The translations under genes and the position numbers were made by a program. A stretch of DNA of 64,000 nt from Acidobacteriota bacterium (lineage in GTDB: Bacteria > Acidobacteriota > Blastocatellia > Pyrinomonadales > Pyrinomonadaceae), in the NCBI GenBank assembly GCA_018269075.1, contig JAFDVJ010000012.1, positions 129,187 through 193,186 on the forward strand. The letters are read 5' to 3'. Under the pieces are notes generated by a model. That model was not told the origin of the DNA. It ran no database searches and saw only the letters and a list, made by a program, of their open reading frames with translations. Positions 44,231-54,870 of the stretch are shown in pieces (within the stretch, counting starts at the first letter, position 1; each line of letters opens with the position of its first letter).

Positions 44231-44866
44231 ATGAAAGCCTTCCGAACGATCGTCTTTTTTATCAGTATAATCTCGCTTTTCGCCGTCGCCGCGTCCGCGC
44301 AGGAAACCGGCGGCGCGAAGGGCAAGGTCCGCAGTATGAAGGGCGACGCGCTCGCCGGCGCGACCGTCACGGCGCGGCTCGACGGTAAGGACATCAAATC
44401 CGTCAAGACCGACGCGAAGGGTGTTTTCGAGCTCGGCGGGCTCGCCCCCGGCGTCTACAACTTCGTCTTCGACAAGAACGGCTACGATCTCGGCGTCAAA
44501 TACAACGTCGAGATCAAAAAGAAATCGGTCGTCGACCTCGGCGACAATCTCCGGCTCGCTCCCGATAAGGGTTCGCTCGTGATCATCAACGGCAGCGTCT
44601 TCAATCAGGACGGCCGCAGCGTGACCGGGGCCGAGATCAAGGTCGAAAAGCTGCTTGCCGACGGTTCGACGAAAAAAGTCGGCAGCGGCTACACGAGCTC
44701 GAGCGGCGAATTCACGATGCGTCAGCCCGAAGCCGCGGCCACGTTTCGCGTCACCGCTTCGCTTCGCGGCGTCAGCGCGTCAAAGGAAATAAAAGTCGAC
44801 AGCGCCGGCATCTACCGCGTCGCGCTGACGCTCGAGCTTCCGAAAGAAGGACGGGAAAAAAACTGA
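44231..44866 (+). CDS. Secreted protein with two carboxypeptidase-regulatory-like domains
   Basis: 211 aa. Signal peptide (ends ASAQE). Two beta-sandwich modules: about 30-115 (GKVRSMKGDALAGATVTARL... FELGGLAPGVYNFVF) and about 120-208 (GSVFNQDGRSVTGAEIKVE... GEFTMRQPEAA). These domains act as binding or spacer modules in secreted and TonB-linked proteins. It starts 6 bp after the epimerase, so likely the same operon. Its stop TGA is the first three bases of the adjacent GGATTTC array (TGATTTCGG). Confidence 0.88.
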   Translation: MKAFRTIVFFISIISLFAVAASAQETGGAKGKVRSMKGDALAGATVTARLDGKDIKSVKTDAKGVFELGGLAPGVYNFVFDKNGYDLGVKYNVEIKKKSVVDLGDNLRLAPDKGSLVIINGSVFNQDGRSVTGAEIKVEKLLADGSTKKVGSGYTSSSGEFTMRQPEAAATFRVTASLRGVSASKEIKVDSAGIYRVALTLELPKEGREKN

Positions 44867-45117
44867 TTTCGGAATTCGGATTTCGGATTTCGGATTTCGG
44901 ATTGTTCGCGGAGTAAGGCGATCGTTTTCAGACGACACGTCCCGAAAGAAAATCAGCAGCCGAAACCACAAAATCAAGCGTCCTGCCCGAATATTCACAT
45001 TCCGGCAGGACGCTTTTGTTTATCGATCTTTTATTCTCTCTTCCCAAACCCTCGATTTCGCCGTCGAATTTCCCAAAACCGACAATCCGAAATCCGAAAT
45101 CCGAAATCCGAAATCAG
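44866..45117. repeat. Facing heptamer arrays spanning a convergent gene pair
   Basis: (GGATTTC)n at 44866-44905 and its complement at 45080-45117 lie at the very ends of two convergent genes. Each array begins with TGATTTCGG, so each supplies the stop codon of its neighbour gene. A terminator hairpin lies between. Confidence 0.92.
44976..45019. terminator. Bidirectional terminator
   Basis: Stem AAGCGTCCTGCC/GGCAGGACGCTT with a loop of about 16 nt and T run on the plus strand. It serves the convergent genes at 44231-44866 and 45114-45548. Confidence 0.85.
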
Positions 45118-45548
45118 TTTATCGTTTCGGAGATCGGCTCGGCCGGCGTGAGCGGTTCCATATTGGTGACGTCGGTGACGATCAGCGGGAATTCCTCGCA
45201 GAGCCGCGCGTCGGCGAGCGTCTGCACCCAGTAGGTGCCGGCCGCCGGGAAGACGACGTTGACGAAGAACGAGACGTTGTCGGTAAAGCCGCCCGGCGCG
45301 AGCTCGATCTGCGTCGGCTGCGACGTGACGACCAGATTCGTGCGGTTCGGCGACAAAATGCGGACCTCGGTCTGGTGATTGCCCGCGCCGCGCCAGTGGT
45401 TGACGACCGCGAACTTGATCAGCGAGATCGGCAGTTTTTCGACCATAATGTTCTGAAAGATCCCCATCAGCGAGATCTTGTTGCCCATCTCGATGCGGAC
45501 GTCGTCGCACAACAGCGTGTAAATGAGTTCCAAATTCTGATTCGTCAT
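45114..45548 (-). CDS. Hypothetical cytoplasmic beta protein
   Basis: 144 aa without signal peptide. It starts MTNQNLELIYTLLCDDVRIE and has SLMGIFQNIMVEKLPISLIKFAVVNHW, a pattern found in a small uncharacterised bacterial family (the DUF6941 type, recalled from memory). Beta-rich, ending MEPLTPAEPISETIN. The TGA stop belongs to the adjacent repeat array. Function unknown. Confidence 0.75.
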   Translation of the reverse strand: MTNQNLELIYTLLCDDVRIEMGNKISLMGIFQNIMVEKLPISLIKFAVVNHWRGAGNHQTEVRILSPNRTNLVVTSQPTQIELAPGGFTDNVSFFVNVVFPAAGTYWVQTLADARLCEEFPLIVTDVTNMEPLTPAEPISETIN

Positions 45549-45701
45549 AATCGCATTCCCTCAACGCCCGAAACCGAAGCACCGCGGCGAACCGGGCCGG
45601 CGCACGACCGGCAGGCTTTTCCTTTTTTCCGCCGCGCCGCCGAAGCCCCGAAAAATTTCTCGTTTCCAATAGAAAGTCCGATTCGGCGCGGTTTTTCAGT
45701 T

Positions 45702-46589
45702 TTATATCGCGCCGTGTTTTTTGAACCAGTCCTGCAGTTTGCTCCACGCGTCCTCGCTCGCTTCCCGGTTGTAGCCCGGGCGATAGTCGGCGTGAAAGCC
45801 GTGACCGGCGTTCGGATAGACGACGATCTCGCTTTTCGATTTGCCCTTTTTCAGCTCGTCGCGCATCCGCTGGACCGAATCGAGCGGGATGCCCTGGTCC
45901 TGGCCGCCGTAAAATCCGATCACCGGCACTTTCAGATCCTTCGCGACGTCGAGCGGCATCGTCGGCTGGACCGGGTTTTTCGTCTGCTTGTCGAGATACA
46001 TCAGCCGGCCGTACCACGCCGCGCCGGCGTCGACCTGCGGGTTGTGGGCGGCGTAGAGCCAGACGATCCGGCCGCCCCAGCAAAAGCCGGTGATCGAGAG
46101 CTTTTTCGTCTTGCCGTTGTTCTTTTTCGCCCATTCGACGGTCGCGTCGAGATCGGACATCGCCTGCGTGTCGGGAATCTTCGAAAAGATGTCGCGCTGC
46201 AGCTCGCGAATCTCCTTGATCGTCTTGACGTCGCCCTGCCGCGCGTAGAGCGCCGGCGCGATCGCCAGATAGCCGAGCTTGGCGAACCGCCGGGCGACGT
46301 CCTGAATCCATTCGTGGACGCCGAAGATCTCGTGAACCACCAGCACGACCGGAAAGTCCTTGCCCTTCGTGTCGGGCATCGCGCGATAGGCCGGGATTTC
46401 GCCGTCGGCAACCGGAATCTTGACTTCGCCCTCGACGAGTCCCTTGTTGTCGGTCGTGATCTTCGTCTGCGCGGCGATCGGTTCGACGGCGGCCGCGAAG
46501 ACGCCGGCCGCGAAGATCGACGTCGCGAAGAATTCGCGGCGGTCGAGCCGCGGCGCGGACGGATTTGAATCGCTGATATCCTGAAACAT
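45702..46589 (-). CDS. Dienelactone hydrolase family protein, Tat-exported
   Basis: 295 aa. N-terminal twin-arginine signal ([20 protein letters not shown]). Alpha/beta-hydrolase of the DLH type with catalytic Cys in [12 protein letters not shown], Asp in [11 protein letters not shown] and His in [17 protein letters not shown] enzymes open lactone rings in chlorocatechol breakdown, but many secreted members have other, unknown substrates. No catabolic neighbours. Confidence 0.92.
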
Positions 46590-46661
46590 TTTTTCCCCCT
46601 CTTCTGGTTTTTCTTAAATTTTTACTTTTCCCGGCCCGTTGGTCAAGGATATAATAGGATT

Positions 46662-46777
46662 TTAGATTTCGGATTTCGGATTTCGGATTTTTTCCGGCGC
46701 GCATTGAGCTGTTTTCGATGAAGCAGATCTGTCGTTTCAAAAAATCCGAAATCCGAAATCCGAAATCCGAAATCGTT
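46662..46777. repeat. Facing heptamer arrays (GGATTTC)n/(GAAATCC)n upstream of a small membrane gene
   Basis: Four units at 46664-46690 face five at 46744-46774, around a 50-bp centre. The right array abuts the start codon at 46778, so any leader transcript from upstream would form a long hairpin ending at the start. Confidence 0.9.
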
Positions 46778-47047
46778 ATGCTTGTTTACGGTTTAATCTG
46801 TCTTTCGCTGAGTCTGGCGGGCGTCGCGGGGCTGCAGTTTTTTTATCTGGCGTATCTCGAACGCGTCGACCGTTCGCGGAAAAACCGGGTCCGCGAGCTC
46901 GAACAGCACTGCAAATATCTGGCCGGCCGTCTCCGCGACGCCGAACGGCAGATCACCGAACAAACCGACTTCATCGAGGCCATCTACGAGGAATTCGACA
47001 CCGAGGACGAAGAGGAAATCTGGGCCGACGTGATCGAAGAACGATAG
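46778..47047 (+). CDS. Small membrane protein with coiled coil
   Basis: 89 aa from ATG 46778; a longer reading would start inside the repeat array. One membrane helix (about 3-27: LICLSLSLAGVAGLQFFYLAYL) and a charged coiled coil (about 30-65: RVRELEQHCKYLAGRLRDAERQI) with an acidic tail (EEFDTEDEEEIWADVIEER). Unknown function; similar small anchored coiled-coil proteins are common in Acidobacteria. Confidence 0.8.
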   Translation: MLVYGLICLSLSLAGVAGLQFFYLAYLERVDRSRKNRVRELEQHCKYLAGRLRDAERQITEQTDFIEAIYEEFDTEDEEEIWADVIEER

Positions 47048-47063
47048 GATTCAAAATATTTTC

Positions 47064-47343
47064 CAGAACTGTTCGGCACGTGCTCAAACGCGCTTTTAAT
47101 GATGTTTGAGACAAACCGCCGCCAAATTTGCCGGTAAATGAAAAGCCCGGCCGGCGAGCGGTTGTTTTTCGGTCCACGAAAGACACTAAAAACACTAAAA
47201 AAACACGAAGGAAATTTAGTGTTTTCGGTGTTTTTGGTGGATCAAAACCGGCTCTTCGCCGTGCTGACGAATCAAATTCAATCGAAAAACGCGGTTCACG
47301 AACGAATCGCCGGTCCGGTCAATTACCGTGCCGAACAACTCTG
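47064..47343. mobile_element. 280-bp palindromic MITE-like element, copy A
   Basis: Ends CAGAACTGTTCGGCACG and CGTGCCGAACAACTCTG are inverted repeats. The interior is a nested palindrome: GGCGAGCGGTTG/AACCGGCTCTTCGCC arms, then CACTAAAAA/TTTTGGTGT 9-mer arrays at the tip. Flanks AATATTTTC and CGTATTTTC match at 7 of 9 positions, as a target-site duplication would. No transposase inside. Same element as 53921-54200. Confidence 0.88.
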
Positions 47344-47360
47344 CGTATTTTCACGCTTTT

Positions 47361-47530
47361 TCAGGAAACCCGGAGCCCCACGGTCCGGTCGATCTTCCAC
47401 CTTCCTTCGATTTTGTAAAGGATCACGAACTCTCCTTTGCCGCAGAGATCGCCGCCGCTGTGGGATACGCTGACGAGCGCCCTGTTTTTTTCCCGGTTGA
47501 AGCCGACCGCCGAAAAAGTTCGGAAGCCTG
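47361..47530 (-). pseudogene. C-terminal remnant of an unknown gene
   Basis: Reading the minus strand gives about 55 residues, FRTFSAVGFNREKNRALVSV then SHSGGDLCGKGEFVILYK and GRWKIDRTVGLRVS, stop. The G-F-N-R-x-K-x-x-A-L-V and C-G-x-G-x-F-x-x-L-x-x-x-x-G-x-W-K pattern is that of the last strands of a small secreted-protein family. Upstream in frame is a stop, so the front is lost. MITE copy A lies 17 bp after its stop. Confidence 0.6.
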
Positions 47531-47589
47531 TTCGTTAGGGACTGTAAAATAGATCGTGTAAACAAAGATCGTCCGGTCTCGAAAAAAAG

Positions 47590-47763
47590 CGGCGACAGCC
47601 GCGCTCTGTCAGTAGCGTCGGCGATAGCCGATGCACCGTCCGCCGGCCGTGCTCCTGCATTTCAAATCGTTCGACAACAAGGTTTTAATCTTCCCGGAAA
47701 GTTACACCGATGCAGCGGTGCATCGGCTGCCGCCGACGCTACTGACCTCGGGCGGCTGTCGCC
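47590..47763. repeat. Palindromic element with about 48-bp arms
   Basis: Arms 47590-47638 and 47716-47763 share GGCGACAGCCGC... CAGTAGCGTCGGCGATAGCC... GATGCACCG with few mismatches. The centre is 77 bp. It probably inserted at the broken gene just described. No coding content. Confidence 0.85.
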
Positions 47764-47774
47764 TCAAAAAGCAT

Positions 47775-48092
47775 CGATTAATTTTTTTCTTTACTTTTTT
47801 TTCGAACGGCGCTATGATCTCTTTCAATTTCGAATCGAATGGCCGCGAAACCCTTTGGTTGACTGCGTTTCAGGCGATTCGAAGGCGTGTGAGATTTGAT
47901 TGCGGGGCCGCGCGTCGAGCGGCGGAAAGACGGAATTGAATTTTGCGGGCTTCCCCAAACGATTAAGGATTCCCGGCCTCTTTTCCCGACCTTCCGGCGC
48001 TTTGCGCAAAGACTTCGAATTCGAATTTTAGGCATTGAAATGTGAGCGTCGCGGCTTCGAAAGTTATTTTCAAAGCCCGCATTGCCCGGACG
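47775..48092. other. Gene-free stretch
   Basis: Moderate GC, no convincing coding frame, no inverted repeats beyond short ones. It leads into the 21-bp repeat region. Confidence 0.5.
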
Positions 48093-48094
48093 AT

Positions 48095-48340
48095 CGTTCG
48101 AAAAACAATCGTCCGGGTTTGAAAACCGGCGAACGAAACTTGAAAAGTAATCGGGCAAGTTTAAAAAGCGGCGAACGAAGCTTGAAAAGTAACGAACGTA
48201 ACTTTAAAAATAATCGAGCAGGATCGAAACGCACCGAACGAACCCCGAAAACCAATCGAGCAGGATCGAAACGCGATCGCAAGGGATCGAAACGCAATCG
48301 CGAGGGTTTGAAACGCAATCGACGCAGTTTGGCGCAAAGC
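48095..48340. repeat. Degenerate 21-bp minisatellite, about eleven units
   Basis: Units such as AAAAGTAATCGGGCAAGTTT, AAACGCAATCGCGAGGGTTT and AAAAGCGGCGAACGAAGCTT recur every 20-22 bp. Because 21 is divisible by 3, a frame stays open across the array on each strand, giving 7-residue repeats (plus strand around S-N-R-A-S-L-K, minus strand around R-F-D-P-A-R-L). No ribosome site or homology supports a protein, so I list it as a repeat. Confidence 0.8.
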
Positions 48341-48515
48341 ATTTCACTTTATGAAAATTGTTGTCAGGTCGTAAGAGTTAAATTTTTCTTGTGAAAACTT
48401 AACTTCCCAAGTCCCCTAAACAGTTTTGCTAAAGACGTTTGTTAATTCACGGGTGAGGAATTAACGCATCGATTAGTTAAAAACTAAAAAGCAGGAAGAG
48501 GACAATTTATAAATT

Positions 48516-48890
48516 ATGTCACGACAAAGAAAATCGATTCCGAAAGAAGTGCAGGCCGCCCAGCAGCGGGCGGCGGGGATGATCTCGGTCGATCCGCGGC
48601 TCGATTTCGGCAGCGGCGTTTCGGTTGAAACGCTCGAAGCCGCGATCGAATCGCTGATCGGCGAGATCAACGAATACAACACGGCGGTGGCGCTGCTCGA
48701 CCAGCGGGCCGACACGATCAAAGCCAGGACGCGGCAGCTTCGCTCGCTGACCTCGCGCGCCCTCAAAGGCGCCGAGCTCCGCTACGACAAAGAGAGCGTC
48801 GAATACGCGATGATCGGCGGCACGCGCCCCTCGGAGCGCAAACACTCCGCCCGCAAACCCGAAGGAGGCGGCGACGAACCGATGAAGTAA
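48516..48890 (+). CDS. Hypothetical coiled-coil protein
   Basis: 124 aa, cytoplasmic, with AGGAAGAGG upstream at 48494-48502. A central helical region (about 38-85: VETLEAAIESLIGEINEYNT... LDQRADTIKARTRQLRSLT) is predicted coiled coil. The tail is basic and Gly-rich (RPSERKHSARKPEGGGDEP). No known family. Base composition is like the core genes, in contrast to the AT-rich island that begins just after it. Confidence 0.75.
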   Translation: MSRQRKSIPKEVQAAQQRAAGMISVDPRLDFGSGVSVETLEAAIESLIGEINEYNTAVALLDQRADTIKARTRQLRSLTSRALKGAELRYDKESVEYAMIGGTRPSERKHSARKPEGGGDEPMK

Positions 48891-48923
48891 ACCGCGTCTG
48901 ACGACAACAATTCATTTATTCCG

Positions 48924-48981
48924 GCGAAGCGTGGGGTTGAACGCCCGGCACGTCTCGCCCGTTTAATTTTTGGGGGATTTT
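48924..48981. repeat. 58-bp direct repeat, left copy (possible island boundary)
   Basis: Starts GCGAAGCGTGGGGTTGAACG and ends TTTTTGGGGGATTTT. It matches 51320-51377 with one mismatch. The pair brackets the AT-rich phzF island. Confidence 0.85.
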
Positions 48982-49175
48982 GAAAACGTTCGTTTGTGAA
49001 AAATTTGCTAGCGCGCAGTATCGTGCTTTTGATTTGAAGAAATTCAGGACGGTCCAAAAACTCCGCGATCCGATTTTGGACACCGATTTCAACTTACTTT
49101 CAAAGATTTTTATTGATAGTGCAGGGCTTTCCGAAAAAAATTTTCAGACCGATAAAAACGGCGAAGCCGTTCGGA

Positions 49176-49571
49176 GAAAATAGCCGGACGTGAAACCATC
49201 AGTATCTACACATTTTTGAGAATTTGTTTTTCTGCGGCTCCGCCGCCCGATGTGCGGACGGGCTGTGCCCGTCCGGCGCACGTCACTCTGGATTTCGGCG
49301 AAAGGCTGCGCCTTGAGCCGCGCCGCGCGAGGCCGAGCCTCGCCATTTTAACGGAAAGCCGTCCCGGCGAGGCGAAGCCATCGCCGCACATCGGGCGGCC
49401 GAGCCGCGGAAAAGCAAGCCTTTTGACTTGTGTAGATACTAATGGTGAAACGTCTGGAAACGGGTCAGGAATTTATCCGCATTGAAGATGCGGAAAGATG
49501 TGGTTCTGGTGCGTCTTCAACGCACGAAATCCGTTCACACCTAACCAGACGTTTCACGTCCGGCTATTTTC
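49176..49571. mobile_element. Non-coding inverted-repeat element built of nested hairpins
   Basis: Perfect 21-bp terminal inverted repeats (GAAAATAGCCGGACGTGAAAC at 49176-49196; complement 49551-49571). Inside, GCCGCCCGATGTGCGG (49242-49257) pairs perfectly with 49384-49399. Between these arms sit consecutive small hairpins with 3-nt loops: 49256-49274, 49302-49314, 49327-49343, 49365-49386. Hairpins 49234-49246 and 49395-49408 flank them. A second inner pair AGTATCTACACA/TGTGTAGATACT lies outside the GC part. Cloverleaf-like; no coding frame. Confidence 0.85.
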
Positions 49572-49572
49572 C

Positions 49573-49893
49573 TGGCCGCGTCTGCCGACGCTTAAAACCT
49601 TTTTAACTGACGTTTTGTTTCAGCGATTTATGGTAGATTTCGACGTTCCGTCGTCTTTGATAAATTGTGGTCATCCGGTCAAAATCAAATCGCCAACGCT
49701 AATCGTGATGGGCGAATTCGATAAAGCTGCTACATTTCCCGTTGCCGAATGGCTGCTAAAATCATTAAAACAATCTCCTACGAGACGTTTAGAGATAATC
49801 GGACACGGTAGCCATGTAATCCAATACGAAACTGAACGCACGGAACTCTATCGCGTGCTAACGGCTTTCTTAAAAGAGGGAACTAAACCATAA
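49573..49893 (+). pseudogene. C-terminal fragment of an alpha/beta-hydrolase
   Basis: About 106 residues ending in KSPTLIVMGEFDKAATFPV and LEIIGHGSHVIQYETERTEL, the final Asp and His segments of an alpha/beta hydrolase. The nucleophile half is missing; the hairpin element directly upstream took its place. AT-rich relative to the genome background, like phzF. Confidence 0.75.
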
Positions 49894-49926
49894 TTGTAGA
49901 GAAAATAATCGATTTCTTTACATTCC

Positions 49927-50086
49927 TGCTCAGTGAAAGTCACGCAAGATGTCCGCGAATTCGCTGAAAAGCAAAACATCGAGGAAGAAAAAGCTCTGGC
50001 AGTCGGAATGGCGGAGAAGGCAAAAGGAGTTTGTTGCGACGGGTGGAGAGATTTATCAAGGGAATAACAATAAGGAAACTTTATGA
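49927..50086 (+). pseudogene. thiC 3' remnant with frameshift
   Basis: Translation gives CSVKVTQDVREFAEKQNIEE then EKALAVGMAEKAK, which matches the C-terminus of phosphomethylpyrimidine synthase ThiC (normally ...FCSMKITQDVR...). A one-base insertion near 50022 shifts the rest: EFVATGGEIYQG in the other frame. The front of the gene, including most of the radical-SAM core, is absent. Confidence 0.75.
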
Positions 50087-50199
50087 ATATTACGACAAAT
50101 TATCTTATTGTTCCGGGACTTGGAAATTCAGGCACCGAACACTGGCAAACTTTTTTTGAAAAAAGCGGTGGCAATTTTCAAAGAATAAATCAAACTTAA
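50083..50199 (+). pseudogene. N-terminal fragment of an RBBP9/YdeN-type serine hydrolase
   Basis: 38 codons, MNITTNYLIVPGLGNSGTEH then WQTFFEKSGGNFQRINQT, stop. This is the opening of a small alpha/beta hydrolase of the RBBP9/YdeN family. The nucleophile and everything after it are missing. Its ATG overlaps the TGA of the shifted thiC frame. Confidence 0.7.
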
Positions 50200-50233
50200 G
50201 AGCGGAGCTGAAATAGGAAAATTCGGTATCAGT

Positions 50234-51142
50234 ATGTCAGTTATTAAAACAAGAGAAACGCTAAATTATTGTGTGTTGGATGTCTTCACGAATGAAAATT
50301 ATAAAGGAAATCCGTTAGCCGTTGTGTTTACCAATGGTAACTTGGAATTAGAACAATATAAAAATATTGCTAAAGAATTCGGCTATTCGGAAACGTCTTT
50401 TATTTATTATTCTAAGATTCAAAAGGCTCTAAATATTCGCTCCTTTACTCCTATCGGGGTTGAGGTTGGCGGAGCGGGACATAATTTGCTGGGTGCTGTT
50501 TGTCTGGCAATCTTAAAAGAAATGGAAATTTTTCAAGAACAGAAAGCGAATCCGTTTGTAATCATGAAAGAAAATCCAATTCCGGTTTTTGCCGATACTG
50601 ATAGCCCGACCCACTTGCCTGTGGTGAAAATGTTACAAAAATCCGCAGTTATTGGCAACGTCGTCCCGGCTGAATTTGTTGCCAACGCACTCGGGCTGAC
50701 GATTGATGATTTAGATGTAAAAATTTTTCCACCTACGATTGTGCAAACGGAGGTTTCCCACCTAATGATTCCGATTAGTAATTTGGAAAAATTAAACAGT
50801 ATTAAGCCGGATAATAAACTTCTTACAGAAATTTCAAAGGAATATCTGTTCGAGGGTTTTTACTGCTTTGCTTTTACAGGTGAAGAGGATGGAGCCTTTG
50901 TTCAATCCCGATTTTTTAACCCGCTCATCGGCATTGATGAAGACGCTGCTACCGGAACCGCTGCCGGACCACTTGCTGGAATTTTATCCAATAAACAATT
51001 AATTCAACTAAATAAGGATTATCAGATATTACAAGGTGTCAAACTAAATCAACCTTCTTTAATACAAGTGATGGTCAAGGAAAACAATATACTGGTTGGC
51101 GGCTCTTCTGTTATCACGATGGAAGGAAAAATATATTTATAG
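50234..51142 (+). CDS. PhzF-family isomerase
   Basis: 302 aa, full length. PhzF-like fold with the catalytic Glu in KEFGYSETSFIY and the paired motifs NPLAVVF, TPIGVEVGGAGHNLLGAV and GIDEDAATGTAAGPLAGIL. PhzF itself isomerises a phenazine precursor, but most family members have unknown substrates and no phenazine genes are nearby. Codon use and base composition are AT-rich (many TTA, AAA, ATT), unlike neighbours outside the island, so it was probably acquired. Confidence 0.92.
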   Translation: MSVIKTRETLNYCVLDVFTNENYKGNPLAVVFTNGNLELEQYKNIAKEFGYSETSFIYYSKIQKALNIRSFTPIGVEVGGAGHNLLGAVCLAILKEMEIFQEQKANPFVIMKENPIPVFADTDSPTHLPVVKMLQKSAVIGNVVPAEFVANALGLTIDDLDVKIFPPTIVQTEVSHLMIPISNLEKLNSIKPDNKLLTEISKEYLFEGFYCFAFTGEEDGAFVQSRFFNPLIGIDEDAATGTAAGPLAGILSNKQLIQLNKDYQILQGVKLNQPSLIQVMVKENNILVGGSSVITMEGKIYL

Positions 51143-51187
51143 AAAAGTGAGACCGAGATTTTGAAACCAAAATTGTAACAATCCATT

Positions 51188-51286
51188 TTGGCAGACGGAA
51201 TGGCTGAGAAGGCGAAGGAATTTGTTGATAAAGGAAGCGAGATTTATCAATGCAATTTGCCCGAAGAGGCGAAGGAGCATCATTAA
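51188..51286 (+). pseudogene. Second thiC 3' remnant
   Basis: 33 codons, ADGMAEKAKEFVDKGSEIYQ then CNLPEEAKEHH, stop: the last residues of ThiC in one open frame. With the first remnant at 49927-50086 it brackets the hydrolase fragment and phzF. The repeat DNA that follows (51290 onward) probably lay after the original thiC. Confidence 0.7.
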
Positions 51287-51319
51287 AAACGGCCGCGAAG
51301 CGTGGGGTTAAAAACGGCC

Positions 51320-51377
51320 GCGAAGCGTGGGGTTGAACGCCCGGCACGTCTCGCCGGTTTAATTTTTGGGGGATTTT
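51320..51377. repeat. 58-bp direct repeat, right copy (possible island boundary)
   Basis: One mismatch to 48924-48981. A further partial tandem copy (AACGGCCGCGAAGCGTGGGG) lies just upstream at 51289-51310. Confidence 0.85.
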
Positions 51378-51443
51378 ATAAAGGGGCCTAAACGTAAAAA
51401 GCCCGTAAAATCAAGATTTGCTGCAAAAAATGTATTTATATGA

Positions 51444-51628
51444 AGGGCTCTTGCAAAGTCCCGAAACGTAACCGGATCAGGAAATTAAAGGCTTGAAATC
51501 TGTCAGTTATGATCTATCATCTTTAATCTATTCCGAAGGTTCGGCCGGTCCTGCTTCGGAATAGATGATAGATCATAGATCATAACTGATAGATAAATAC
51601 CCAATCTCGCGACTTTGCAAAGACCCTG
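51444..51628. mobile_element. 185-bp MITE-like element with 10-bp target duplication
   Basis: Imperfect terminal repeats AGGGCTCTTGCAAAGTC and GACTTTGCAAAGACCCT, flanked by identical ATTTATATGA at 51434-51443 and 51629-51638. The interior holds facing arrays around TATCATCTTTAATCTATTCC and GGAATAGATGATAGATCATA. No gene inside. Confidence 0.8.
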
Positions 51629-51719
51629 ATTTATATGAATAGTTGCGACTACTTACTTAGAGCGATTCAAGAATGGATCGAAGGTTTTGAGTCTCGCCTT
51701 CAGGCCAATGACATTAGGT

Positions 51720-51905
51720 TAATCTGAGTCCTGAGTCGGAAGTCTTGAGTCTTAAGTCCGTTTTCGAATTCGCCGGTTTTCAGTTTCAGACAAAGATTTT
51801 GTCGAAAATAACGCCCGGAGGACGAAATCGAAAGCGCTGCCAAATGACTTAAGACTTAAGACTCAAGACTTCAGACTTTATTTTTTCAACTCAGGACTCA
51901 GATTA
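51720..51905. repeat. Facing heptamer arrays (GAGTCTT/AAGACTT type)
   Basis: AATCTGAGTCCTGAGTC and AAGTCTTGAGTCTTAAGTC (51721-51759) face GACTTAAGACTTAAGACTC and AACTCAGGACTCAGATT (51846-51905). The outermost 17 bp also pair. No gene. Confidence 0.85.
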
Positions 51906-51967
51906 AGTTAAGACTTTCTCCCCCGCTATTGCAATTCGTCCGGCAACGGTGGCAGAATATCGCGTAA

Positions 51968-52384
51968 ATGGCGGACGCGGGCTGTTATCAGCTGCTGATC
52001 GAGATTAAAAAAGACATCGCCGTAAGCGTCGGCGCGCTCGGCGTTTGTCGTTTCGAGCGGGGCTTTTACGTCTACACCGGGAGCGCGATGAAGAATCTCG
52101 AAAAGCGCGTCGCGCGGCATCGCCGGAAGGAGAAAAAACTGCGCTGGCACATCGATTACCTGCTCGCGCACCCGGCCGTCGAGGTCAAAGACGTCGCGGT
52201 TCATCTCTCGGAAGACAAAGAGGAATGTCTCTACAATCAAAAACTGATCGCCGCCGGCGCGACCGCGCCCGTCCGCGGCTTCGGCTCGTCCGATTGCCGC
52301 GCGTGCGAAGCGCACCTATTGCGATTTCGGATTTCGGATTGCGGATTGTGGATTTCGGATTTCGGATTGGTCTTCTCGATGTAA
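51968..52384 (+). CDS. GIY-YIG-related DUF123 protein
   Basis: 138 aa as read. The core (about 4-115) matches the DUF123 branch of the GIY-YIG superfamily: YQLLIEIKKDIAVSVGALGV, GFYVYTGSAMKNLEKRVARH, KLRWHIDYLLAHPAVEV and GFGSSDCRACEAHLLRF. These small proteins occur alone or fused to endonuclease III and probably act on DNA. The last about 18 residues (ISDCGLWISDFGLVFSM) are read from the GGATTTC array, so the real C-terminus is eroded. Confidence 0.88.
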   Translation: MADAGCYQLLIEIKKDIAVSVGALGVCRFERGFYVYTGSAMKNLEKRVARHRRKEKKLRWHIDYLLAHPAVEVKDVAVHLSEDKEECLYNQKLIAAGATAPVRGFGSSDCRACEAHLLRFRISDCGLWISDFGLVFSM

Positions 52385-52456
52385 CCTGTTCGGTTAAATC
52401 TGAAGCCTCCGCATCCGAACCAATCCGCAATCCGCAATCCGCAATCCGCAATCCGA
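52323..52456. repeat. Heptamer palindrome with conserved 63-bp core, copy 1
   Basis: (GGATTTC)n on the left, (CCGCAAT)n on the right. The 63-bp core 52364-52426 (begins GGATTGGTCTTCTCGATG, ends CCGAACCAATCC) is identical to 53108-53170. Confidence 0.95.
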
Positions 52457-52530
52457 TATTTCTCCTTCGGCAAAAAACTTTCGCGTTTTTCGTTCCTATT
52501 GATAGTTATTTAACAAGGAGTTTTTTACTT

Positions 52531-53082
52531 ATGATCAGACTGAGACAACCGTCTCTGGTGCTGCATTCGTGCGACGTGCCGGGGTATAAATATGAAATGT
52601 GGAAATCGTGGACGATGCCGCGCGGGGCGTCGGCGAGCGATGTCGTTTACTGGATCAACTGGGCGATCGACCATTCGCCCGAAATGGAGCTGCACAACGT
52701 CGTCATCAACTGTCACGGCTCGCCGGGCGGTCTGCACGTCGGCGGCTGCGGGCCGGGCGGGCGCGCGATCTACGCCGGCGATCTCGGCGTTTTCAAGAAC
52801 GTCCGTTCGGGCTCGCTCGGGACGATCTACATCGTCGCCTGCGAGGTTTCGCAGACCGACGGCAAGACGAAGTTCGGCACGAACTTCTGCTCGCAACTGG
52901 CCGTCAACGCCGGCTGCTTCGTGGTCGCGGCCGACAAGATCCAGTCGGTCGATTTCTGGTTCGAAAACTTTCGCCACCCGTTCGGCGCGATCGACGATTA
53001 CGAAGGCAACGTCACCGAATTCGGCCCCTCCGGCAGTATGCAGCCCTGGAACCCCGCCGACGCGACCGGACTAGCAAATTGA
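52531..53082 (+). CDS. Caspase-fold-like small protein
   Basis: 183 aa, ATG 52531 with AAGGAG 10 bp upstream. Two segments resemble the catalytic pair of clan CD peptidases: NVVINCHGSPGGLHVGG (His) and TIYIVACEVSQTDGKTKF (Cys), with the usual spacing of about 50 residues and a following GTNFCSQLAVNAGCFVVAA. No signal peptide. The C-terminus (GSMQPWNPADATGLAN) ends at TGA formed by the next repeat element. Substrate and role unknown; I hold the fold call as a hypothesis. Confidence 0.7.
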   Translation: MIRLRQPSLVLHSCDVPGYKYEMWKSWTMPRGASASDVVYWINWAIDHSPEMELHNVVINCHGSPGGLHVGGCGPGGRAIYAGDLGVFKNVRSGSLGTIYIVACEVSQTDGKTKFGTNFCSQLAVNAGCFVVAADKIQSVDFWFENFRHPFGAIDDYEGNVTEFGPSGSMQPWNPADATGLAN

Positions 53083-53206
53083 TTTCGGATTGCGGATTTC
53101 GGATTTCGGATTGGTCTTCTCGATGTAACCTGTTCGGTTAAATCTGAAGCCTCCGCATCCGAACCAATCCGAAATCCGAAATCCGAAATCCGAAATCCGA
53201 AATCAC
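53080..53206. repeat. Heptamer palindrome with conserved 63-bp core, copy 2
   Basis: Sits exactly between two convergent genes; TGATTTCGG at each end provides both stop codons. Core 53108-53170 is identical to copy 1; the flanking unit arrays differ in number and in GGATTTC/GGATTGC variants. Confidence 0.95.
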
Positions 53207-53625
53207 TCTGGTTCTTTCAGGGTTTTGTCTTTGCGGCAGACCGAAAGCGGGCGGGCGTAGGCGCTTTTGACGACTTCGACCTGATTGGTTTCGGAATTGA
53301 ACCGGCCCTTGAAGCAGGCGCAGCCGTAGCCGTAATCGCCGTTGGTTTTGACCCATTCGGTCTTTTTGAAGGGCGGCGGATAGTCGCCTTCGGCCTGAAA
53401 GCCGCCCTGCGTGCCGATGATCCACTCGCCGTCCTTATCGTCGAGCCAGAAATTGCCGGGCGTCGGGTTCGAAAACCAGCCGCAGCGCGTTTGATCGGGG
53501 ATAGTCAGGGCGGTAAACGCGGCGGCGGCCGTCGTTTCCTCGAACGAACGGTTCGCGACCGACGCGACCGCCAGAGGGATTCCGCAGATAATCGTAATCG
53601 CCAGAAGCGTTAAATTTTTTTTCAT
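53203..53625 (-). CDS. Secreted DUF4087 protein
   Basis: 140 aa. Signal peptide (about 1-22), then RCGWFSNPTPGNFWLDDKDG, EWIIGTQGGFQAEGDYPPPF and VKTNGDYGYGCACFKGRF, matching the DUF4087 pattern with three conserved Cys. Domain function unknown; proteins are small and exported. Stop codon comes from the adjacent repeat. Confidence 0.88.
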   Translation of the reverse strand: MKKNLTLLAITIICGIPLAVASVANRSFEETTAAAAFTALTIPDQTRCGWFSNPTPGNFWLDDKDGEWIIGTQGGFQAEGDYPPPFKKTEWVKTNGDYGYGCACFKGRFNSETNQVEVVKSAYARPLSVCRKDKTLKEPE

Positions 53626-53911
53626 AGATTCGCCTATACGAAGGACCCAAACAAGAATAAAGTCCCTGAAACCAACGACAATCCGGCAATGACAAAACTC
53701 CCCCGCGTTTTATCAAACGTCGATTTCAGTTGGTTGGGTAGATTTTTACTATCTTTTGACTGGTAGTGTACCTTTTTTCTGCGATCTTGAAAAGCGAAGA
53801 TTATTATTTAAAGCAGATTTGCGATCGATGTCCGGCGGGCTGTCAGCCGGCCGAATAAGTTTGCGGGCGTGAAGCCGCGCGACCGAACAAAAAATCTTTC
53901 GCGCGGTTCCC
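53626..53911. other. Gene-free stretch before MITE copy B
   Basis: No convincing gene. AAGCAGATTT at 53811-53820 is complementary to AAATCTGCT at 54214-54222, so MITE copy B may sit inside an older palindrome. GCCGGCGG-type short hairpins lie at 53829-53850. Confidence 0.5.
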
Positions 53912-53920
53912 GTAAATTTA

Positions 53921-54200
53921 CAGAACTGTTCGGCACGTGCTCAAACGCAGTTTTTATGATTTTTGAGACAAACCGCCGCGAAATTTGCCGGGAACTGAAA
54001 AGCCCGGCCGGCGAGCGGCTGTTTTTCGGTCCACGAAACACACTAAAAACACTAAAAAAACACGAATGATATTTAGTGTTTTTGGTATTTTTGGTGGATA
54101 AAAACCGGCTGTTCGCCGGACTGACGGATCAAATTCAATCGAAAAACGCAACTCACGAACGACTCGCCGTTTCGGTCAATTACCGTGCCGAACAACTCTG
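53921..54200. mobile_element. 280-bp palindromic MITE-like element, copy B
   Basis: Same ends (CAGAACTGTTCGGCACG / CGTGCCGAACAACTCTG) and nested layout as 47064-47343, same length. Flanked by identical GTAAATTTA at 53912-53920 and 54201-54209. That 9-mer is nearly self-complementary, so part of the match could also be read as an extension of the inverted ends. Confidence 0.9.
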
Positions 54201-54222
54201 GTAAATTTAACTAAAATCTGCT

Positions 54223-54546
54223 CTAGTCGTGAAAAGTGACGATCGTCGCGCCCCAGCTTCCGGAGAACTCGTCGGCGGTTTTGAAGGATCTGACGAAGGG
54301 CGTGTTTTCGAGCACCTTGCGGACGGCCTCGCGCTGGACGCCGATGCCCTTGCCGTGAATGATGCGGACCAGCTTAAAGCCTTTTTTGCGCGCCTCTTCG
54401 AGATAGGCGATCGTCACCGCCTTGACGTCGCGCGGCGCAAACGCGTGGAGATCGATCGAATCGGTGATCTCGAGCTCGATCGGCTCGTCGATTTCGGATT
54501 GCGGATTGCGGATTTCGGATTGGTTTTCCCGATCGATATCGTTCAT
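54223..54546 (-). CDS. Smr-domain protein with repeat-derived N-terminus
   Basis: 107 aa. Smr domain (about 28-107) with DLHAFAPRDVKAVTIAYLEE and VRIIHGKGIGVQREAVRKVL, the usual DLH and HGKG motifs. Stand-alone Smr domains bind or cut structured nucleic acid, often in ribosome or recombination control. Residues 7-21 (ENQSEIRNPQSEIDE region) are translated from the GGATTTC-type array, and the ATG lies in the core of repeat copy 3, so the start is supplied by the element. Confidence 0.88.
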   Translation of the reverse strand: MNDIDRENQSEIRNPQSEIDEPIELEITDSIDLHAFAPRDVKAVTIAYLEEARKKGFKLVRIIHGKGIGVQREAVRKVLENTPFVRSFKTADEFSGSWGATIVTFHD

Positions 54547-54592
54547 TTTGTTTAAGCCTCCATATTCAAACTAATCCGAAATCATTGCTGTT
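54487..54592. repeat. Heptamer palindrome, divergent copy 3
   Basis: Left arm (GGATTTC/GGATTGC)n inside the Smr gene, core 54527-54577 starting GGATTGG and ending CTAATCC, with TTTAAGCCTCC in place of GAAGCCTCC. Related to copies 1 and 2 but diverged and 12 bp shorter. Right arm is reduced to one unit. Confidence 0.8.
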
Positions 54593-54651
54593 AAAAGTAA
54601 TTCGACGACAGCTGGTTGTCGTGACCGCTGAAAAGCAGCACTGAAGCTTCT

Positions 54652-54789
54652 TGACTGGAGCGCCGGCATCCTTGCCGGCCTGAGCGCGAAAGCGCGAAAA
54701 TGCTTTTCATCATCGAGCAGCGTCGAGGATTTGCAACGTTCGACACCGCTCGCGCGGCGTTGCGGGCAAGGATGCCCGCGCTCCAGTCA
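54652..54789. repeat. Palindromic REP-like element
   Basis: Arms TGACTGGAGCGCCGGCATCC (54652-54671 and on) and GGATGCCCGCGCTCCAGTCA (54770-54789) with a 100-bp centre. Both arms contain the common bacterial motif GGCAAGGATGCC-like. A (GAAATCC)n array follows at 54836-54867, next to the stop of the next gene. Confidence 0.85.
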
Positions 54790-54870
54790 GCAAATTCCTG
54801 TTTTCCTTTAGAAGTCGATCTTTTTAACAGTAATGATCCGAAATCCGAAATCCGAAATCCGAAATCGCCC

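Follow-up and report, generated by a model that had tools for sequence, protein, structure and literature searches.

An inverted-repeat element with a mirrored, REPIN-like hairpin array nested in an IS200/REP-type element of an Acidobacteriota genome

The window, i.e. the whole stretch of 64,000 nucleotides analysed here (contig JAFDVJ010000012.1 of an Acidobacteriota assembly, positions 129,187 to 193,186), contains at its positions 49176-49571 a cloverleaf of nested hairpins, which consists of two nested mobile elements of different origin. An initial annotation made from the sequence had treated it as a single element; the two parts have separate copies. We are highly confident that an outer IS200/REP element was hit by a MITE with IS4-like ends whose cargo is a RAYT-associated, REPIN-like array. 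Throughout, G000 designates the genome from which the window derives (own genome), other G numbers the genomes of relatives, C contigs and L loci. The overall geometry described initially was recovered, namely perfect 21-bp ends (49176-49196 and 49551-49571) and a 16-bp long-range stem (49242-49257 with 49384-49399), the latter within 34-nt arms (49224-49257 and 49384-49417) that are 91% complementary. A 29-nt pair (49184-49212 and 49429-49457) corresponds to the end repeat of the inner element plus the target duplication. Compared with 100 dinucleotide shuffles per strand, the fold reached z scores of -15.0 and -12.9 for the two strands, well under the shuffled controls, which rules out chance; since the nested terminal repeats supply part of this score, the score alone is no evidence of RNA.

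Own-genome matches to the structure fell into two distinct sets, one for the inner and one for the outer part. Query positions 97-346 (window 49196-49445) gave about a dozen matches, the best with 84-96% identity, plus weaker ones, and with these relatives of the inner 248 bp the element is not the isolated single copy that the initial annotation had allowed for. The remaining query matched one own-genome place (G000:C121), at which the outer part is uninterrupted, and uninterrupted outer ends were also present in several congeners. In the window the 248-bp block divides the intact outer end GAAAATAGCCGGACGTGAAACGTCTGG into ...GACGTGAAAC and GTGAAACGTCTGG..., and comparison of the intact end at C121 with the split end indicates that GTGAAAC was duplicated by insertion: one copy (49190-49196) lies at the tip of the outer REP hairpin and the other, an exact 7-bp copy, follows the block (49445-49451). 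Judged by the sequences, the inner element (49197-49444), a 248-bp MITE with a mirrored REPIN-like core and own-genome copies 84-96% identical over the 248 bp, inserted itself into the loop of the left REP hairpin of the outer element. The 248-bp unit with its terminal inverted repeats (TIRs) and the 7-bp duplication argue for a DDE transposase rather than for transposition as single-stranded DNA. A single-stranded stage, as proposed initially, agrees with the REP/RAYT and IS200 links described below, but not with the way in which the 248-bp inner unit moves.

The TIRs of the inner element were identified by an end search and are shared with elements of relatives (CATCAGTATCTACACA on the left, 49197-49212, + strand; CATTAGTATCTACACA on the right, 49429-49444, - strand); the untruncated ones among the best own-genome copies terminate in CATTAGTATCTACACA or a slight variant of it. 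In G029, ends of this type bound 1.38-1.39-kb copies with a DDE transposase, and at G029:C3 a 1,388-bp element encoding an uninterrupted 427-aa DDE protein carries CATTGGTATCTACACA at each end. The inner element therefore has its TIRs in common with an autonomous transposase-coding element, as an IS4-like MITE should. The 427-aa protein scored above the cutoff for Pfam DDE_Tnp_1, and its nearest NCBIfam profile was IS4_3, at 97.8 bits below the cutoff of 160. An autonomous copy with CATTAGTATC ends was not found in the own genome, where the TIR search gave only copies of this element; as the assembly is 86% complete, the autonomous parent may be missing or lost.

The target-site duplication likewise expected of an IS4-like MITE was GTGAAAC in the window and 7-10 bp long elsewhere, and a recognisable 7-bp duplication was seen in only three of the seven own-genome two-ended insertions (L001 exact, L003 with one mismatch, L002 with two). 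Insertion targets were rebuilt by joining the flanks of the elements. The rebuilt target in G029 was a perfect palindrome with the insertion at its tip and a 10-bp duplication, and insertions at hairpin tips were also found in G010 (target CCAGCCGTTTGACGGCTGG, 9-bp duplication) and G037 (8-bp duplication). Target hairpin strength was above that of random sites for 13 sites (p=9e-7) and for the seven own-genome sites alone (p=0.0016), both values being optimistic as some of the 13 targets are related; 24 IS701-type sites in G010, used as a control, were indistinguishable from random (p=0.48). This hairpin-tip preference of the shell hints at recognition of cruciforms or palindromes by a DDE transposase. 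The right flanks of two inner copies (L004 and L007) have a repeat in common (CGCCCGGGGYTTTAC...GATGGCTGAATA), which is probably another interspersed repeat family serving as target.

Following a reading in PMC3733652, the TIRs could instead be the halves of target palindromes hit by RAYT-inserted REPINs. For A. variabilis and H. neapolitanus, REP dimers have been reported within palindromes (PMC3733652), and a RAYT insertion into a MITE may even have been the first origin of the composite, but we regard this reading as quite improbable for the element in the window: the direct 7-bp duplications are external to the TIRs, DDE elements that encode a transposase have the same end sequences, the repeated unit is the whole 248 bp including the TIRs, and of uninterrupted CATTAGTATC palindromes without a core the own genome contains none.

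The core is also found in another shell. G010 harbours it inside unrelated IS701-type CTCACCTTACGCRG ends with exact 7-bp duplications, and the same ends enclose there another hairpin core that is unrelated to the first (CCACGCGATTTATCGCGTGG among others, ~287 bp; L141-L170); counting both core types, exact 7-bp duplications were found in 10 of the 19 listed CTCACCTTACGCRG-ended elements of this genome, which has ~260 matches to the CTCACCTTACGCRG end vs 39 in the control. CTCACCTTACGCRG ends also hold a transposase gene, decayed in G010 and intact in G008 (duplication TAAGTAA; NCBIfam IS701_2, 339 bits vs 250), and an IS701-type transposase was not found in the own genome. CATTNGT ends carry three other hairpin cores in G037 (L234, L235, L242) and G010 (L238), as arrays of 209-348 bp inserted at hairpin tips. 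With one core in two shells and one shell with several cores, shells and cores are separable modules, and the bacterial class appears to hold captures by two or more TIR types. Among the own-genome copies, those with TIRs show the highest identity (84-96%) and those without clear TIRs (L015, L016, L017) reach 75-79%, so the recent own-genome copies would have arisen via the DDE route.

Across the family the core follows a mirrored plan of hairpin a (GCGGC-TNN-GCCGC), the tag CYGATGTG, hairpin b (9-bp stem, TNN loop) and hairpin c, followed by c'-b'-a'. On the + strand of the window, hairpin a (GCGGC-TCC-GCCGC, 49234-49246; covariance model match of 68.4 bits) is joined by the linker CCGATGTG (49247-49254), near-invariant at alignment columns 14-21 and occupying the GTAG position of known REPs, to hairpin b (CGGACGGGC-TGT-GCCCGTCCG, 49255-49275; alignment and covariance model), after which comes hairpin c (AAGGC-TGC-GCCTT, 49302-49314; read from the sequence, with an equivalent hairpin in relatives). 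The - strand carries hairpin c' (GCGAGGC-CGA-GCCTCGC, 49327-49343; sequence and relatives), hairpin b' with a one-base bulge and a sequence unlike b (49365-49386; covariance model match of 53.3 bits), the second copy of the linker CCGATGTG (49387-49394; alignment and covariance model) and hairpin a' (GCGGC-TCG-GCCGC on this strand, 49395-49407; covariance model). The four hairpins with 3-nt loops seen initially are thus b, c, c' and b', and a and a' are two further outer hairpins of the cloverleaf.

Among 35 distinct half-elements, 97.8% of the cells were paired, and double-sided changes amounted to 50 cells vs 12.4 in shuffles, none of 500 shuffles reaching 50. The covariation called for in the initial annotation is therefore there, as strong compensatory changes across copies. 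The loops and the middle of the core vary, and the linker beside the hairpin is constant. In 25 of 31 elements the left and right b hairpins had at least four differences, and b pairing was 98% for the local and 74% for the long-range partner in a test whose halves had been pre-filtered for fair hairpins; the exceptions to local pairing in the unfiltered list of halves were mostly bulged or shifted stems. Since the b hairpins on the two sides often differ, it is the local hairpin that is maintained. The long-range stem was consequently rejected as a conserved structure of the cloverleaf: b and b' differ, yet each keeps its own pairing.

The hairpins a-b-c ... c'-b'-a' also enclose a 180-aa gene in the own genome (G000:C88), and its orthologues in two relatives (G001:C209 and G021:C154) are enclosed by the same hairpins. 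With the NCBIfam profile REP_Tyr_transpos the G000, G001 and G021 proteins scored 94.7, 83.6 and 87.5 bits (cutoff 80), and the HUH motif MPDHYHL is conserved in all three, which bears out the REP/RAYT kinship suspected initially. The RAYT gave one match only in the own genome, and the sequence flanking it is common to G000 and G021; its closest relatives in named genomes were in Acidobacteria and Pyrinomonadaceae assemblies. The core thus has several of the properties of a REPIN mobilised by a RAYT, i.e. a single-copy and vertically kept RAYT, a cognate gene flanked by the same repeats, and inverted hairpin pairs in multiple dispersed copies. The GTAG (GTGG) tag at the hairpin foot is absent, the invariant tag being GATGTG; as tags other than GT[AG]G have been reported for some TnpA_REP classes (PMC6006769), we call the core REPIN-like. 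At L120 (G019:C162), at least four tandem GTGATGTG-tagged hairpins adjoin a RAYT gene.

A covariance model of the half-element was searched over 40 genomes and matched 35 times in the own genome, 133 times in G010, at least 150 times in G012, 110 times in G036 and not at all in many others. A RAYT match (E<1e-20) was obtained in 12 of the 40 genomes. Two or more model matches were present in all 12 genomes with RAYT vs 5 of the 28 others (Fisher p=1.1e-6, kinship ignored). Core elements occur without a RAYT in G003, G007, G008 and G033, for which loss or horizontal entry must be invoked. A plain MITE with incidental internal palindromes and no link to RAYT would be compatible with the TIRs, the target-site duplication and the copy number taken alone; it is very unlikely in view of core hairpins and linker that flank the RAYT gene and track RAYT over the 40 genomes, stems that vary by compensation, and a core that occurs without these TIRs too (L015, L016).

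The very stable fold and the covariation would also be expected of a structured small RNA gene spread by a transposon. We give this explanation a slim chance, because no Rfam family was recognised (at E up to 1, two sub-threshold chance matches only), the two-fold symmetry of the core fits DNA recognised at both ends, the loops and the middle vary while the linker adjacent to the hairpin is constant, and left and right hairpins differ freely. The retron-like nature considered initially found no counterpart in the region: by inspection, no reverse transcriptase was seen among ORFs of 80 aa or more within 45000-54000, and the retron RNA families gave no match in 48000-51000.

The outer element (about 49156-49592) is of the non-autonomous IS200/REP type, has an empty-site paralogue at G000:C121 and copies in G001, G002, G003 and G018, and measures ~182 bp once the insertion and the extra 7 bp of the duplication are subtracted. 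Its limits were set at the flanking hairpins, i.e. hairpin A on the left (AACGGC-GAA-GCCGTT, 49156-49170, read from the sequence; paralogues have a hairpin there too) and another at about 49578-49591. The left end up to the insertion point (49176-49196, + strand) forms with 49452-49457 an end repeat whose perfect complement is the right end repeat (49545-49571, - strand), so that the outer repeat is 27 bp long, not 21, once the inner insertion is removed. The outer end hairpin CCGGACGTGAAACGTCTGG is preceded by GATAG in the window and by GTAG in relatives, and the outer copies in relatives share a hairpin CCRGACGTGAAACGTCTGG with GATAG/GTAG before it and another hairpin outside.

In one relative (G003:C59) the outer ends enclose a 167-aa gene, the product of which passes the NCBIfam cutoff for IS200/IS605 transposases (60.9 vs 55) and stays below that for RAYTs (15.9 vs 80). 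IS200/IS605 TnpA genes with outer ends were also found in G001, G002, G015 and G027, in keeping with the IS200-like kinship proposed initially, and these arrangements identify the copy in the window as non-autonomous. From the family of this enzyme, the outer element would be mobilised as single-stranded DNA by a Y1/HUH TnpA. In the own genome a TnpA with outer ends was not found; three relatives of the outer TnpA are present there (44-48% identity), and at C130, the one such locus examined, the outer ends are absent. At L216 (G027:C135), outer REP arrays surround an IS200-like TnpA gene, seven in the same orientation before it and several inverted after it. The chance that 49176-49571 is one composite moving whole by single-strand transposition, to which its perfect outer 21-bp ends would be suited, is practically nil given the empty outer paralogue at C121, which refutes it, the separate copies and distributions of the two parts, the inner part's own target-site duplication and the lack of a second composite copy in the genome.

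Downstream of the outer element lies a hydrolase-like C-terminal fragment (49612-49890) with weak, sub-cutoff family matches. It belongs to a 131-aa ORF (49498-49893, + strand), probably a gene remnant, in which the final 93 aa are similar to the C-terminal part of an alpha/beta hydrolase. The initial view that the front of a hydrolase gene had been replaced receives only partial support from this fragment 3' of the element, as the gene was in no congener: the search for an intact hydrolase gene as empty site gave the own fragment and one weak match in G013 only, and no unoccupied site for the outer element turned up among the congeners. Elsewhere in the surroundings, a degenerate 21-bp tandem repeat (also readable as 63 bp) overlaps a 119-aa open frame at 48119-48327, and intergenic 7-bp tandem repeats of the AATCCGA/GATTTCG type occur at several places within 44865-54866.

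REPINs and RAYTs are already known (PMC3116915), as are REPtrons and TIRtrons (PMC3733652). With the REPIN/REPtron systems and their RAYTs (PMC3116915, PMC6006769, PMC8266576) the core shares the inverted pair of conserved hairpins, dispersed copies, compensatory changes and a single-copy RAYT flanked by the core's own hairpins; it differs in having three hairpins per side instead of one, the tag CYGATGTG instead of GTAG, a length of 160-250 bp and its location inside elements with TIRs and target-site duplications. The outer element resembles IS200/IS605 derivatives in its hairpin ends around a Y1 TnpA (which in G003 passed the NCBIfam cutoff), but its ends, with several hairpins and a GTAG-tagged REP, are closer to a REPtron. 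REP dimers regularly surrounded by a second inverted repeat were described by Di Nocera in 2013, without a mechanism, and Acidobacteria are among the hosts of TIR-flanked RAYT-like genes, the TIRtrons (PMC3733652). That work interpreted the outer palindrome as either a target or a RAYT-related TIR, whereas here a direct duplication lies outside the palindrome and the palindrome belongs to DDE transposons. IS elements targeting REPs are known as well, including ISRm22 of the IS4 family (PMC1525189); like it, the present IS4-related element enters REP sequences, but the inserted elements carry REP-type arrays, and they enter at a hairpin tip, duplicating 7-10 bp. In the open-licence papers searched, we found no account of TIR elements that duplicate their target and carry REPIN arrays.

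The history we propose for the inner element has three steps. The RAYT would first have made and spread the array via single-stranded DNA, as its association with RAYT and the covariation suggest; purified TnpA_REP acts on REPs as single-stranded DNA (PMC8266576). DDE-type ends would then have enclosed and captured the array, which in this form would have produced the recent copies in its own genome. A class-wide partnership, in which RAYT-made arrays repeatedly become the cargo of TIR elements and one TIR type homes to REP tips, is a tentative extension that we hold possible but rather doubtful. If it were true, hairpins would breed insertion sites and insertions would spread hairpins, which could also account for REP dimers inside palindromes in unrelated bacteria.

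Nested or captured elements of this kind offer a concrete explanation for the palindromes around REP dimers. In most accounts REPINs stay within their genome and depend on a single domesticated RAYT. The TIR shell with its 7-bp duplications provides a second, RAYT-independent way for them to multiply and possibly to move, and the nesting joins two mobile-DNA systems that are usually treated separately.
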